Source: Candidatus Rhodoblastus alkanivorans
GTDB lineage: Bacteria > Pseudomonadota > Alphaproteobacteria > Rhizobiales > Beijerinckiaceae
Length of the DNA: 64,000 nucleotides
Assembly: GCF_022760755.1 (NCBI RefSeq)
Contig: NZ_JAIVFP010000001.1
Location: 1,071,501 to 1,135,500, forward strand
Direction: 5' to 3'
Shown: positions 58,699-62,936 of the stretch, piece by piece
Layout of the letters: the number at the start of each line of letters is the position of its first letter
Numbering within the stretch: position 1 is the stretch's first letter
Notes under the pieces: generated by a model
The model's input: only the letters and a program-made list of their open reading frames with translations
Told to the model about the DNA's origin: nothing
Database searches by the model: none
Position numbers and translations under genes: made by a program

Positions 58699-59475
58699 TC
58701 ACGGCGTCGTTTTCACCACACCAACCATCGGCCCGAGCGGCACGGCGAAATCGTTGCGGCCGAGATTGGGCGCGTAAAGCGCGGAAACCGAGCCGTCGAG
58801 GAAGAGGGCGTTGTTGCATCGGAGCACGTCGCGGAACAGCCCGGCGAATTGATGGAAAGTCACAGGCTGGTTCGAAATGGCGAAAAGCACTTCGCCCGCG
58901 CGGCCGATGCCGACGCCGTTCCTGATCTTTTCGGACACGCCGTCGGCGTTGATGCGCGGGTGAATGTGGCCGTTGACCACCAGCATCGGGCCGGACTGGG
59001 AGGCGTATGCCGCATGGGGCCGCTGGCTCAGGAACTGCGAGGTCTCCATCACCCCCGCATAGCCTGGGCCGAAATAAAACACGCCATTGGGCTTGAGATG
59101 GAAATTGCCGGACCCGGAGCGGGTGTTCGCGCGCTTCATCTCGACGCCCTTCTCTATATAGAGGCCGATGGGCGCCTGTTTGTCATTATACATGCCGGCG
59201 TTCATCGCGAAGACCAGTTTTTCCCCCGGCGCCAGCGTGGCCGCGGCGGCCGCGAAACTCCCCAAGGGCTGGCCATTCGGCCCCCGCCAGAACAGGCGCA
59301 GGTCGTCTGTCTTCGGATCGAAGCGGCAGATCGTATAGGACCGGTCCTCCGCCCTGAGATCGGCGCAGGGCGCGGCGATCGCCGGCGGAGCGAAAGGGAA
59401 AGGAAACGCCCCAGCGGAAGGGGCCAGCAGCAAGGCCAGGCCGACACCAGCGCCAAAACTAAAAATGTTCCGCAT
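58699..59475 (-). CDS. Exported DUF2233 (phosphodiester glycosidase-like) protein
   Basis: A 258-residue protein with a signal peptide (about 1-23, cleavage after AGA). The NAGPA/DUF2233 fold is shown by V-F-A-M-N-A-G-M-Y, S-G-S-G-N-F-H-L-K-P-N-G-V, A-S-Q-S-G-P-M-L-V-V-N-G and A-L-F-L-D-G-S-V-S. Members cleave phosphodiester-linked sugars. The gene is convergent to aroC and divergent from the HTH-RibBA gene, sharing its 59-bp promoter region. Confidence 0.82.
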   Translation of the reverse strand: MRNIFSFGAGVGLALLLAPSAGAFPFPFAPPAIAAPCADLRAEDRSYTICRFDPKTDDLRLFWRGPNGQPLGSFAAAAATLAPGEKLVFAMNAGMYNDKQAPIGLYIEKGVEMKRANTRSGSGNFHLKPNGVFYFGPGYAGVMETSQFLSQRPHAAYASQSGPMLVVNGHIHPRINADGVSEKIRNGVGIGRAGEVLFAISNQPVTFHQFAGLFRDVLRCNNALFLDGSVSALYAPNLGRNDFAVPLGPMVGVVKTTP

Positions 59476-59491: not shown

Positions 59492-59508
59492 TTTTAGCAT
59501 TGCTAAAA
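59492..59508. promoter_or_regulatory. Palindromic operator between DUF2233 and HTH-RibBA genes
   Basis: TTTTAGCA and TGCTAAAA flank a single T: a perfect 17-bp dyad, 26 bp upstream of the RibBA fusion start and 16 bp upstream of the DUF2233 start. A half-site TTTAGC follows at 59520-59525. Such short TAGCA-N-TGCTA dyads suit small helix-turn-helix repressors. The fused HTH domain of the adjacent gene is an obvious candidate binder; this is inferred. Confidence 0.65.
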
Positions 59509-59534
59509 ACCCAATTTCCTTTAGCTTCTCTTCC

Positions 59535-60842
59535 ATGAAGCTGGCGGATTGGTTGCGCAAATCCGGCGTGAGCCGGGTCGAGTTCTCGCGGCGGCTTGGC
59601 CTGACGCCCGGCGCCGTGACCCAGCTCTGCAATCAGCAAAGCGTCTGGATGTCGCGCGAGACGGCCCAGGCCATCGCGCGCGAGACTCGCGGCGCGGTGA
59701 CGCCGAACGACTTTCTGCCTGAGGTCGGCGACGAGGACAAGGGAGGGGGCCAGGTGAGCCATCAAGCGACGCATTCGGTGACCCAAGCCATAGAGGCGAT
59801 CAAGCGCGGCGAAATCGTCGTCGTGACCGACGACGACGACCGCGAGAACGAAGGCGATCTGGTGATGGCGGCGAGCCTGTGCACGCCGGAGAAAATGGCC
59901 TTCATCATCCGAAATTGCTGCGGCATCGTCTGCGCGCCCTTGAGCGGGGTCGAGGCGCGGCGCCTGCATCTGACGCCGATGGTGGCCGAAAACGACGCGC
60001 CGCTCGGCACCGCCTTCACCGTTTCCGTGGACGTCAAGCACGGTCTGACCACCGGCATCTCCGCCGAACAGCGCGCCAATACCGTGCGGGGGCTCGCCAA
60101 CAACAATCTCGGCGCCAATGATTTCGTCCGTCCCGGCCATGTCTTTCCGCTGGTCGCGCGCGAGGGTGGGGTGCTGATGCGCTCCGGCCATACCGAAGCC
60201 GCGGTCGATCTCTGCACGCTCGCCGGCCTGCCGCCGATCGGCGTGATCTGCGAACTCGCCAATGACGACGGTACGGTGATGGTCGGGCCTCAGATCGCCG
60301 GCTTCGCCGAGAAACACAATCTCAGGCAGATTTCGGTGGCGGACCTCATCGCCTATCGCCAGGCGCGCGAAAAACTTGTGGAAAGGGTCGCCGCCTTCCC
60401 TGTGCAGACGCGCTTCGGCGAATTCGCCGGCTACGCCTATGTCACGCCTTTCGATTCGGTCCAGCATTTCGCCCTCGTCGCCGGCGAGATCGGCGAGGGC
60501 CGCGACATTCCGGCCCGCCTCCATCGCGCCGACATTCTCGGCGACGTGTTCGGTGGCGGCCTTGCGATCAATTCCGCGCTCGAATCCTTCGCCGGGCACG
60601 GACGCGGCGTGCTGGTCTATCTTCGCGACGGCGCCGCCGGCGTGCCGGCCAATCTCGTCGGCCAGCAGGAGACGGGATCCCAGACCGAGCGCGCCCGCAA
60701 TTGGCTCGACATCGGCGTCGGCGCCCAGATCCTGCGCGATCTCGGGGTTTCCTCGATCCGCCTGCGCACCAAGGCGCCGCGCAAATATGTCGGCCTTTCG
60801 GGCTTTGGCATCGAAATCACCGGCACGGAGGACGGCTATTGA
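59535..60842 (+). CDS. ribBA: RibBA-like riboflavin enzyme with N-terminal helix-turn-helix domain
   Basis: A 435-residue fusion. Residues 1-65 form a YdaS/Cro-like helix-turn-helix (M-K-L-A-D-W-L-R-K-S-G-V-S-R-V-E-F-S-R-R, then T-P-G-A-V-T-Q-L-C). About 75-280 is 3,4-dihydroxy-2-butanone-4-phosphate synthase with the D-D-D-D-R-E-N-E-G-D-L acids, R-S-G-H-T-E-A and C-x-x-x-x-x. The C-terminus aligns with GTP cyclohydrolase II but lacks its zinc cysteines (H-R-A-D-I-L-G-D-V-F-G-G-G in place of a C...C-D-C segment), so that step is probably lost. An in-frame GTG at 59754 with GGGAGG upstream could yield a domain-free enzyme; ATG 59535 has no clear ribosome site. Confidence 0.85.
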   Translation: MKLADWLRKSGVSRVEFSRRLGLTPGAVTQLCNQQSVWMSRETAQAIARETRGAVTPNDFLPEVGDEDKGGGQVSHQATHSVTQAIEAIKRGEIVVVTDDDDRENEGDLVMAASLCTPEKMAFIIRNCCGIVCAPLSGVEARRLHLTPMVAENDAPLGTAFTVSVDVKHGLTTGISAEQRANTVRGLANNNLGANDFVRPGHVFPLVAREGGVLMRSGHTEAAVDLCTLAGLPPIGVICELANDDGTVMVGPQIAGFAEKHNLRQISVADLIAYRQAREKLVERVAAFPVQTRFGEFAGYAYVTPFDSVQHFALVAGEIGEGRDIPARLHRADILGDVFGGGLAINSALESFAGHGRGVLVYLRDGAAGVPANLVGQQETGSQTERARNWLDIGVGAQILRDLGVSSIRLRTKAPRKYVGLSGFGIEITGTEDGY

Positions 60843-61450
60843 CGGACGACGCCGAGGCGCAGCGCCATCGCGAGAAAATGGCGAAGCGAAAGCAGGTTCA
60901 GGACGGCGAGGTCGCCGGCAAGACGATCGAGTCCAAGGGCCTGCTGATCGTCCACACCGGGCCGGGCAAGGGCAAATCCACCGCCGCCTTCGGCCTCGTC
61001 CTGCGCGCGCTCGGCCATGGCTGGAAGGTCGGCGTCGTCCAGTTCGGCAAGGGCGCCTGGGAGACCGGCGAGCGCAAGGCGCTGGAGCGCTTTTCCGATC
61101 TGGTCAGCTGGCACACGCTCGGCGAAGGTTTTACCTGGGAGACGCAGGACCGCGCCCGTGATATCGCCGCCGCCGCCCGCGCCTGGGACAAGGCGAGGGA
61201 GCTGATGGCCGATCCGGACATCAAGCTTCTGGTTCTGGACGAGCTGAATATCGCCTTGCGCTACGAACATCTGCCGTTGGAGGAGGTGGTCGCGGCGCTC
61301 AGTCGCCGCCGGCCGGACCTGCACATCATCGTCACCGGCCGCAACGCCAAGCCGGAGATGATCGCCTCCGCCGATCTCGTCACCGAAATGCAGGCGACCA
61401 AGCACCATTTCGCCGCTGGCGTGAAAGCGCAGCAGGGAATCGAATTTTGA
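60839..61450 (+). CDS. cobO: Cob(I)yrinic acid a,c-diamide adenosyltransferase
   Basis: Adenosylates the corrin cobalt using ATP in cobalamin synthesis. The 203-residue protein contains the P-loop [18 protein letters not shown], and [10 protein letters not shown], all CobO/CobA hallmarks. TTG 60839 is taken as the start: it overlaps the RibBA stop (TTGA) and gives the normal length; an internal ATG (60878) would be 13 codons shorter. The close overlap suggests cotranscription with the RibBA fusion. Confidence 0.93.
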
Positions 61451-61481
61451 GAACGGCCGCCAATGTCGCAGGTGTCCGGCC

Positions 61482-62936
61482 GTGACTCGCGCGCTGATGT
61501 TTCAGGGCACGGGTTCGGATGTCGGCAAGTCGCTGCTGGTTGCCGGGCTTTGCCGCGCTTTCGCCCGGCGCGGCCTGAAGGTGCGGCCTTTCAAGCCGCA
61601 GAACATGTCGAATAATGCCGCGGTGACGGCGGATGGCGGCGAGATCGGGCGCGCCCAGGCGCTGCAGGCGCGCTCCTGCCGCGTCGCGCCGAGCATCCAT
61701 ATGAATCCGGTGCTGCTCAAGCCGCAGAGCGAAATCGGCGCGCAGGTCGTGGTTCAGGGCAAGATTTTTGCAACCGCCAAGGCGCGCGATTATCAGGCGT
61801 TGAAACCGCAGCTCGCGGGCTTTGTCGCGGATTCCTTCGCCCGGATGCGCGGCGAGGCCGATCTCGTCCTGGTCGAGGGCGCAGGCAGTCCGGCCGAGGT
61901 CAATCTCCGCAGGGGCGATATCGCCAATATGGGTTTCGCCAGGGCCCATGACGTTCCGGTCGTGCTGATCGGCGATATCGACCGCGGCGGGGTCATCGCC
62001 CAGATCGTCGGCACGAAAGCCGTGCTCGACCCCGACGACGCCGCTTTGGTGCGTGGTTTCGTCGTCAATAAATTTCGCGGCGACGCCAGCCTGTTTGCCG
62101 AGGGCATGGCGCTGATCGCGCAAAAGACCGGCTGGTCGGCGCTCGGCCTCGTGCCCTTTTTCGCCGACGCCCGGCGCCTGCCGGCGGAAGACGCCGTCGC
62201 ACTCGCGCAACGGGAGCGGCCGAACGGCGCGGGAAAAATCGTCGCCGTTCCGCTGCTCGCCCATATCAGCAATTTCGACGATTTCGACCCGCTGAAACTG
62301 GAGCCGGGCGTCGATCTGCGCCTCGTCCCGCCTCAAGAGCCTTTGCCGCTTAGCGATCTCGTCATTCTGCCGGGAACCAAGGCGACAATAGCCGACCTCG
62401 CCTTTTTTCGCGCACGGGGCTGGGACGTCGATCTCCTCGCCCATGCGCGGCGCGGCGGGAAAATTTTGGGAATCTGCGGCGGCTATCAGATGCTGGGCAA
62501 AACGATCGCCGACCCGCTCGGCGTCGAGGGGCCGCCGGGCGAAGTCGAGGGGCTGGGCCTGCTCGACGTTGCGACCGAACTGACCGGCGAAAAGATTTTG
62601 CGCGCCTGCGAAGGCGTTTCCCTTGCGGAGAAGGCGGCTTTTTCAGGCTATGAAATGCATGTCGGCGCGACCACCGGGCCGGATTGCGCGCGACCGATGC
62701 TGCGCTTTGCGGATGGCCGCGCCGATGGCGCCGTTTCAGCGAGCGGCGCGATCCGCGCCTGCTATGTCCATGGCCTCTTCGCCCACGAGGCGCAGCGCGC
62801 CGCGCTCTTGCGCTGGATCGGCGCCGAGCCGTCGAGCCTCGCCTATGAAGTGGAAATCGATCGCGTGCTCGATGCTCTCGCCGATCATCTTGAGCAGCGC
62901 ATCGACCTCGAAGCGCTGCTCGAATTGGCGCGATAA
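61482..62936 (+). CDS. cobQ: Cobyric acid synthase
   Basis: Amidates four side chains of adenosylcobyrinic a,c-diamide using glutamine. The 484-residue protein has an N-terminal dethiobiotin-synthetase-like ATP domain ([18 protein letters not shown]) and a C-terminal class-I glutamine amidotransferase domain with the nucleophile in G-I-C-G-G-Y-Q-M-L and H in Y-V-H-G-L-F. GTG 61482 is 31 bp after cobO, so the two are probably one transcript. Confidence 0.95.

Follow-up and report, generated by a model that had tools for sequence, protein, structure and literature searches.

In the excerpts of the published work cited here, the flavin mononucleotide (FMN) riboswitch is a usual bacterial control of riboflavin genes (PMC13028884). 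RibBX proteins, found in Proteobacteria, join an active RibB to a degenerate RibA half that is missing critical zinc-binding and ring-opening residues, and the X domain of the Shewanella protein is reported to regulate RibB activity by a mechanism not known there (PMC10012899). RbkR is listed as bifunctional, a gene regulator and a riboflavin-pathway enzyme, and its relative without a helix-turn-helix (HTH) as an enzyme only (PMC8305020). BirA, a group II biotin protein ligase, is counted among the 'trigger enzymes' (PMC4016012, PMC6391492). In the alphaproteobacterium Wolbachia, the transcription factors wBmxR1 and wBmxR2 bind a rib gene promoter (PMC3518464). Here we describe a locus in a 64,000-nucleotide stretch of Candidatus Rhodoblastus alkanivorans (contig NZ_JAIVFP010000001.1, positions 1,071,501 to 1,135,500; hereafter the window), where a RibBX protein carries an N-terminal HTH and a DNA dyad lies just upstream of its gene. 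Among openly licensed PMC papers, none was found that describes a fusion of an HTH to RibB.

The gene, HTH-RibBX, spans 59535..60842 on the forward strand and encodes 435 amino acids. The locus combines the fusion itself, a dyad that is co-inherited and co-varies with the HTH, promoter-like spacing and a kept internal start. Judged from these sequence features, the protein would bind the dyad and repress its own gene, the mRNA would be leaderless, and two proteins would be made. HTH-RibBX is probably an autorepressor and an enzyme in one, produced together with plain RibBX from the same mRNA.

The original prediction described a RibBA with a YdaS/Cro-like N-terminal HTH. The HTH stood, being in frame and modeled with five helices, while the name did not, RibBX being correct. 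The domain comprises residues 1-62 (59535..59720, forward strand) and scored below Pfam cut-offs in the window protein: 19.4 of 30 bits for YdaS (YdaS_toxin PF15943), 19.0 of 22 for HTH_26 and 18.4 of 23 for HTH_3. HTH_3 was nevertheless matched by 13 of 14 HTH members at E<=1 (best E 1.8e-6). AlphaFold returned a five-helix HTH with a mean predicted local distance difference test score (pLDDT) of 89. By sequence profile the nearest solved chains were YdaS 8co2/8c7k (E ~0.001). Foldseek placed phage Cro 3bd1, CapH and YdaS 8co2 nearest, every E-value being >=0.07, with template modeling scores of 0.70-0.79 to the query for matches including Cro 3bd1, YdaS 8co2 and lambda repressor 1lmb. The head thus fits the five-helix Cro/C1-type (XRE) fold, and its co-variation with the dyad suggests that it binds DNA in a sequence-specific manner. 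It is under purifying selection (dN/dS, the ratio of nonsynonymous to synonymous substitution rates, 0.03-0.18 in 10 pairs).

A perfect dyad had been predicted just upstream, and TTTTAGCATTGCTAAAA is indeed present exactly at 59492..59508, the predicted binding site (operator) for the HTH of the same protein; its conserved form is TTYAGYNNNRCTRAA. No other site in the window has three or fewer mismatches (mean of 0.03 in shuffles). In the 4.35 Mb genome no other site comes below three mismatches, and three more sites have exactly three; a reversed control pattern gave 14 sites versus 4 for the dyad pattern.

The dyad follows the HTH across relatives. Within 150 bases upstream of 116 distinct fusions with this head (type 1), TTYAGYNNNRCTRAA was present with no mismatches in 93, one in 16 and two in 7. 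At one mismatch or fewer, it accompanied 109 of the 116, versus none of 36 RibBX genes without this HTH. The underlying 134 type-1 rows contain duplicates (Rhodoblastus and others from two collections), and the 116 are distinct, not mutually independent. In a tree set of 82 rows, the same threshold was passed by 41 of 46 type-1 loci, 0 of 28 HTH-less loci, 0 of 6 type-2 loci and 0 of 2 type-3 loci. Nine independent tree pairs linked dyad and HTH, with 7.3 changing the same way and 0 in the opposite way (median p 0.016); this test covered 82 loci, outside which lie 68 of the 80 named loci and a later set of 20. Those 20 fusions, fetched later from seven other families, all carried the dyad. The motif was first taken from the first relatives seen, where first-order Markov samples stood in for exact shuffles, as they did for the type-2 and type-3 dyads below. 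A slightly wider form, chosen afterwards, was used for the tree-set and later-loci counts; this form was scored on the later-fetched loci too, and HTH-less genes served as the control. Conservation of HTH and dyad in relatives, which the original prediction had proposed to check, was joint across families, and the dyad was absent where this HTH was absent. Four HTH-less loci placed in the tree with Microvirga flocculans (L129-L132) have lost the dyad too and, with both elements gone, offer a natural knock-out for comparison.

Operator bases also appear mostly to track residue 30 of the recognition helix. In the AlphaFold model this helix covers residues 25-33 (59607..59633, forward strand) and holds Gln30 in the window protein. 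Among the 109 distinct fusions with an operator, Gln30 accompanied TTTAG/CTAAA in 56, TTCAG/CTGAA in 6 and mixed halves in 8. Ala or Gly at this position accompanied TTCAG/CTGAA in 36, a mixed operator in 1 and TTTAG/CTAAA in 0, and His30 and Leu30 occurred once each. When 60 HTH positions were ranked by mutual information with operator class (duplicates still included, mixed operators dropped), residue 30 came first and residue 26 second, both within the recognition helix.

Two further HTH heads occur on RibBX. Type 2 was found in six loci (L027, L032, L136-L139) that form one branch (support 98/83), and in 1 of 397 genomes of the order; we take this head to be S24-repressor-like. Type 3 was found in two lone genomes (L034 and L150). 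Profile similarity to type 1 was weak (hhalign probability of 33 percent for type 2 and 2 percent for type 3). We rejected the notion that these heads are unrelated to type 1, as all score in the Pfam HTH_3/HTH_26 group. Each type-2 gene is preceded by a TTGCG-N5-CGCAA-like dyad in two copies, one at -34 to -38 and the other at -68 to -81 (6 of 6 loci, 0-2 mismatches). The six loci that supplied this dyad, by eye, were also those later scored, so that its shuffle values err on the favorable side; for L136 and L137 the best single site was not unusual (0.17). Type-3 genes have GGAA-type dyads directly before the start: TGGAATTAAATTCCA in L150, identified by script, and GGAAACAATTTCC in L034, seen by eye where the script criterion found none. 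A different head beside a different dyad supports self-binding, on few loci.

The position of the operator is promoter-like. In the window, a -35-like box (TTGCTA, 59500..59505, forward strand) lies within the right half of the dyad, and a -10-like box (TAGCTT, 59522..59527, forward strand) follows 16 bases past it and 7 bases ahead of ATG 59535. A profile of 68 dereplicated upstream regions, set on the HTH ATG, showed T 0.91, T 0.68 and G 0.47 at -35 to -33 and an enriched TA at -12/-11 (one base further upstream in the window); the same profile contained no Shine-Dalgarno sequence before the HTH start codon. Operators started mainly at -38 to -43 relative to the HTH ATG, next at ~-67 and ~-77, and rarely at -23. 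A good operator (one mismatch or fewer) lay over the -35 region, at -47 to -36, in 84 of the 116 distinct fusions. Standard promoter spacing would place the transcript start at or near the A of ATG 59535, such that a leaderless mRNA is the natural reading and would explain the absent ribosome site at this codon. In 22 of 25 Microvirga loci, only three codons lie between an in-frame stop and the ATG, fixing the HTH start at the latter.

A second start lies within the gene. As originally predicted, GTG 59754 has a strong Shine-Dalgarno sequence (GGGAGG, 59741..59746, forward strand, 7 bases ahead; duplex -12.0 kcal/mol) and ATG 59535 has none (duplex +1.3 kcal/mol). The frame from the GTG (59754..60842, forward strand) encodes RibBX without the HTH, at 362 amino acids. 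This possibility of an HTH-free enzyme, also raised in the prediction, gained support from conservation: at 19-26 codons ahead of the RibB motif DDxDRE, 114 of the 116 distinct fusions keep a start codon in frame, and 89 of the 116 have an internal start duplex of -6 kcal/mol or stronger, versus 314 of 4639 control windows taken from those frames. Duplexes at HTH starts had a median of -1.7 kcal/mol and reached -6 kcal/mol in 3 of 116. Mean start duplexes were -7.9 kcal/mol for fused internal starts (33 of 34) versus -5.8 kcal/mol for unfused ribBX (27 of 28). These data suggest that two products are made.

The HTH-headed vitamin B2 enzyme occurs in many soil and plant-associated bacteria. A GTDB scan with an alignment of 14 HTH domains and the single peptide pattern GAVTPNDF, from which the best 80 of 203 relatives were kept, showed an in-frame fusion of HTH to RibB in 80 of the 80 kept loci; one of them (L111) ends early, at 239 amino acids, inside RibB. 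By title, fusion genera were Rhodoblastus, Microvirga, Methylobacterium, Chelatococcus, Pseudochelatococcus, Alsobacter, Bosea, Methylocapsa, Methylocella and Roseiarcus. Among 60 related genomes, 23 aligned with the HTH from residue 1, including 11 of 11 from the genus. Within the order, at least 70 of 397 genomes had HTH and RibB in one match (26 of 142 genera, 8 families), a lower bound because an E-value cut was used. Trees built on RibBX without the head show HTH carriers from the base to the tips and require 12 changes. Most simply, this pattern would reflect an old gain with repeated losses, repeated gains being the alternative.

The enzyme part of HTH-RibBX is like RibBX as described (PMC10012899), with an active RibB, a degenerate RibA half and a separate RibA elsewhere. 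The RibB domain, a 3,4-dihydroxy-2-butanone 4-phosphate (DHBP) synthase, covers residues 84-274 (59784..60356, forward strand; PF00926, E 2e-80). It contains the active-site motif DDxDREN, as TDDDDRENEGD, and a solved RibB aligned to residues 5-198 of the 198-residue RibB query. PF00926 had a single match in the whole genome, at this gene, making HTH-RibBX the only DHBP synthase found in the organism. The X domain, a degenerate GTP cyclohydrolase II, covers residues 283-430 (60381..60824, forward strand; PF00925 GTP_cyclohydro2, E 1e-29). Alignment to RibBA 4i14 confirmed the predicted loss of its zinc cysteines, an already known trait of RibBX. No riboflavin kinase domain was found, DHBP_synthase and GTP_cyclohydro2 being the only Pfam enzyme domains in the protein. 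As the full-length AlphaFold model had low confidence in the RibB/X part (mean pLDDT 67), no ligand pocket was read from it. The separate RibA (366 amino acids, around G000:C1:1671225; L208:964-2064) keeps its zinc cysteines. Its long N-terminal part lacks the DDxDREN motif and, by eye, looks like a decayed RibB; this RibA would then be RibBX in mirror image, with one live half left in each of the two proteins.

We propose the following model. The N-terminal Cro-like HTH would bind TTYAGYNNNRCTRAA dyads at its own promoter, mostly over the -35 box, and the bound HTH-RibBX would block transcription, a feedback by which the sole DHBP synthase of the cell would hold down its own production. Transcripts would begin at or next to the ATG, allowing the HTH form to be translated without a Shine-Dalgarno sequence, while the Shine-Dalgarno-led second start just ahead of the RibB domain would yield plain RibBX from the same mRNA. 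RibB enzymes are dimers, so the HTH form and the plain form could mix. The original suggestion that the enzyme represses its own gene is thereby supported, in that the dyad follows the HTH across families and its bases follow the recognition helix; the repression itself we infer. In Shewanella the X domain reportedly regulates RibB activity (PMC10012899), which makes this domain a candidate for tuning repression. The sensor role that the original prediction raised for it is among the less well supported parts of that prediction. We also considered an extended model, tentative and rather doubtful, of a vitamin thermostat. Here the dead RibA half would sense a flavin or GTP-derived ligand and tune operator binding, and the balance of leaderless and Shine-Dalgarno-led translation would set the repressor share in RibB dimers, linking B2 supply to ribosome state.

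Several observations weigh against the autorepressor model. Seven of the 116 distinct fusions lack an operator at one mismatch or fewer, and in the tree set 5 of 46 rows are without one (L140, L141, L143, L096 and L125). In 24 of 116, the only good copy is distal, 18 of these 24 having a weak copy (2-3 mismatches) near -40, and in 1 of 116 the only good copy is by the start. The six Gln30 proteins that adjoin a TTC-type operator depart from the residue-30 pattern, and the tree-corrected form of this link (102 loci, mixed operators dropped) has 6 pairs only, with 4.8 changing the same way and 0 opposite (median p 0.06). The internal start is missing in 2 of 116 fusions (L207 and L143, both of family f23). 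Type-2 fusions have an internal start codon in 1 of 6, without a strong Shine-Dalgarno sequence, and two products are therefore not essential to the idea. The 12 changes that scatter the head over the tree mean many losses, or gains, and a head that cells can do without. Finally, an operator over the -35 box makes repression the likelier action, yet position suggests this and does not prove it.

That last point leaves room for a protein that, once on the dyad, activates instead of repressing or acts in both ways, the distal copies near -67 and -77 offering one route. A good distal copy is present in 52 of 116 fusions and is the sole good one upstream of the start region in 24; 9 of the 20 later-fetched loci from seven other families are of this distal-only kind, and the distal distances are about one helical turn apart. 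However, the 84 of 116 fusions with a good copy at -47 to -36 have it over the -35 box, the classical place for a repressor, and the weak copy near -40 is kept in the 18 of 24 distal-only cases. We consider activation, alone or together with repression, unlikely on this balance.

A very unlikely explanation is that the dyad serves another regulator, or terminates the upstream aroC, and that the HTH is a structural or dimerization add-on. Many XRE proteins are encoded per genome and could supply the other regulator, but gains and losses of dyad and HTH coincide on the tree, the bases of the dyad go with residues of the recognition helix, and other heads adjoin other dyads. As for a terminator, aroC does precede the dyad in the majority of named loci (63 of 80, counted in 3 kb flanks, as are the neighborhood counts below); a terminator would not need a fixed distance to the HTH start codon, yet dyad starts cluster at about -41, -67 and -77. 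It is harder still to credit that the plain enzyme from the internal start is the sole product, the HTH frame being a relic or leader. The HTH start without a Shine-Dalgarno sequence (median -1.7 kcal/mol) would fit such a relic, as would internal starts at least equal to those of unfused ribBX (-7.9 versus -5.8 kcal/mol). Against this stand the purifying selection on the HTH, its in-frame position in all 80 kept loci, a promoter placed for leaderless translation, and the co-variation of HTH and operator.

In the autorepressor model, the protein's own promoter is the one target we put forward, and no regulon beyond ribBX is claimed. The TTTAG/CTAAA form occurs at one site per genome, at ribBX, in 11 of 11 Rhodoblastus genomes. 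In pattern searches the looser TTYAGYNNNRCTRAA had 31 sites in the 11 Rhodoblastus genomes versus 49 for the reversed control; one genome (G001) had 5 sites versus 0 for the control.

Upstream of the dyad in the window, a DUF2233 gene (58699..59475, reverse strand) diverges from ribBX, with 16 bases from its ATG to the dyad. The original prediction extended control to this gene, which is possible in Rhodoblastus and fails elsewhere: the Rhodoblastus loci all have DUF2233 beside the dyad (10 of 10), whereas it is absent from the other 70. The dyad could also serve DUF2233 in Rhodoblastus only. That it exists for DUF2233 is ruled out by its presence without this neighbor, which the system does not need. 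Downstream, CobO and CobQ follow ribBX at 60839-62936; both were found downstream in Rhodoblastus only (4 of 80 and 7 of 80 loci, respectively). A possible CobO start, TTG 60839, overlaps the ribBX stop, and the autoregulated transcript may therefore reach the cobalamin genes in the window. The lower ligand of B12 is made from FMN.

The FMN riboswitch (RF00050) had 0 matches in this genome under strict filters, by which weak matches could be lost. Among the 397 genomes of the order, it was found in 14 of 70 with the fusion versus 135 of 327 others, and in the related set in 11 of 60 genomes and 0 of 23 with the fusion. Among these 14, the riboswitch was placed in 7 (G288, G361, G439, G530, G536, G562 and G585), each time on a different contig from ribBX. 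We do not claim that the fusion replaces the riboswitch: the association is negative, uncorrected for kinship and not exclusive, and many fusion-less relatives lack the riboswitch too.

If correct, the autorepressor model would supply a means of riboflavin control in alphaproteobacteria, a class in which many of the genomes searched had no detected FMN riboswitch. It would allow operators to be predicted gene by gene and present a case of protein-DNA co-evolution inside one gene. A leaderless start combined with a conserved internal start would be a way to obtain regulator and enzyme from one frame, and a testable role is suggested for the X domain of RibBX.

Compared with known systems, the locus differs from that of Wolbachia, where wBmxR1 and wBmxR2 are separate proteins, reported as activators that do not bind their own promoters (PMC3518464); here the HTH is fused to the enzyme. 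Unlike RibBX as described in the excerpted text of PMC10012899, it features an HTH, an operator and a second start. Systems with the FMN riboswitch are under RF00050 control, and for the Rhodoblastus locus none was found in the genome. Archaeal RbkR is a riboflavin kinase, whereas the enzyme here is a bacterial DHBP synthase and the only operator found is the protein's own. As in BirA, which acts as a repressor, an N-terminal DNA-binding domain and a vitamin enzyme share one chain. Here, an internal start also sets the enzyme apart from the regulator, and the mRNA appears to be leaderless; to our knowledge, neither is known for BirA. RibBX, XRE autorepressors, BirA and RbkR are all already known.
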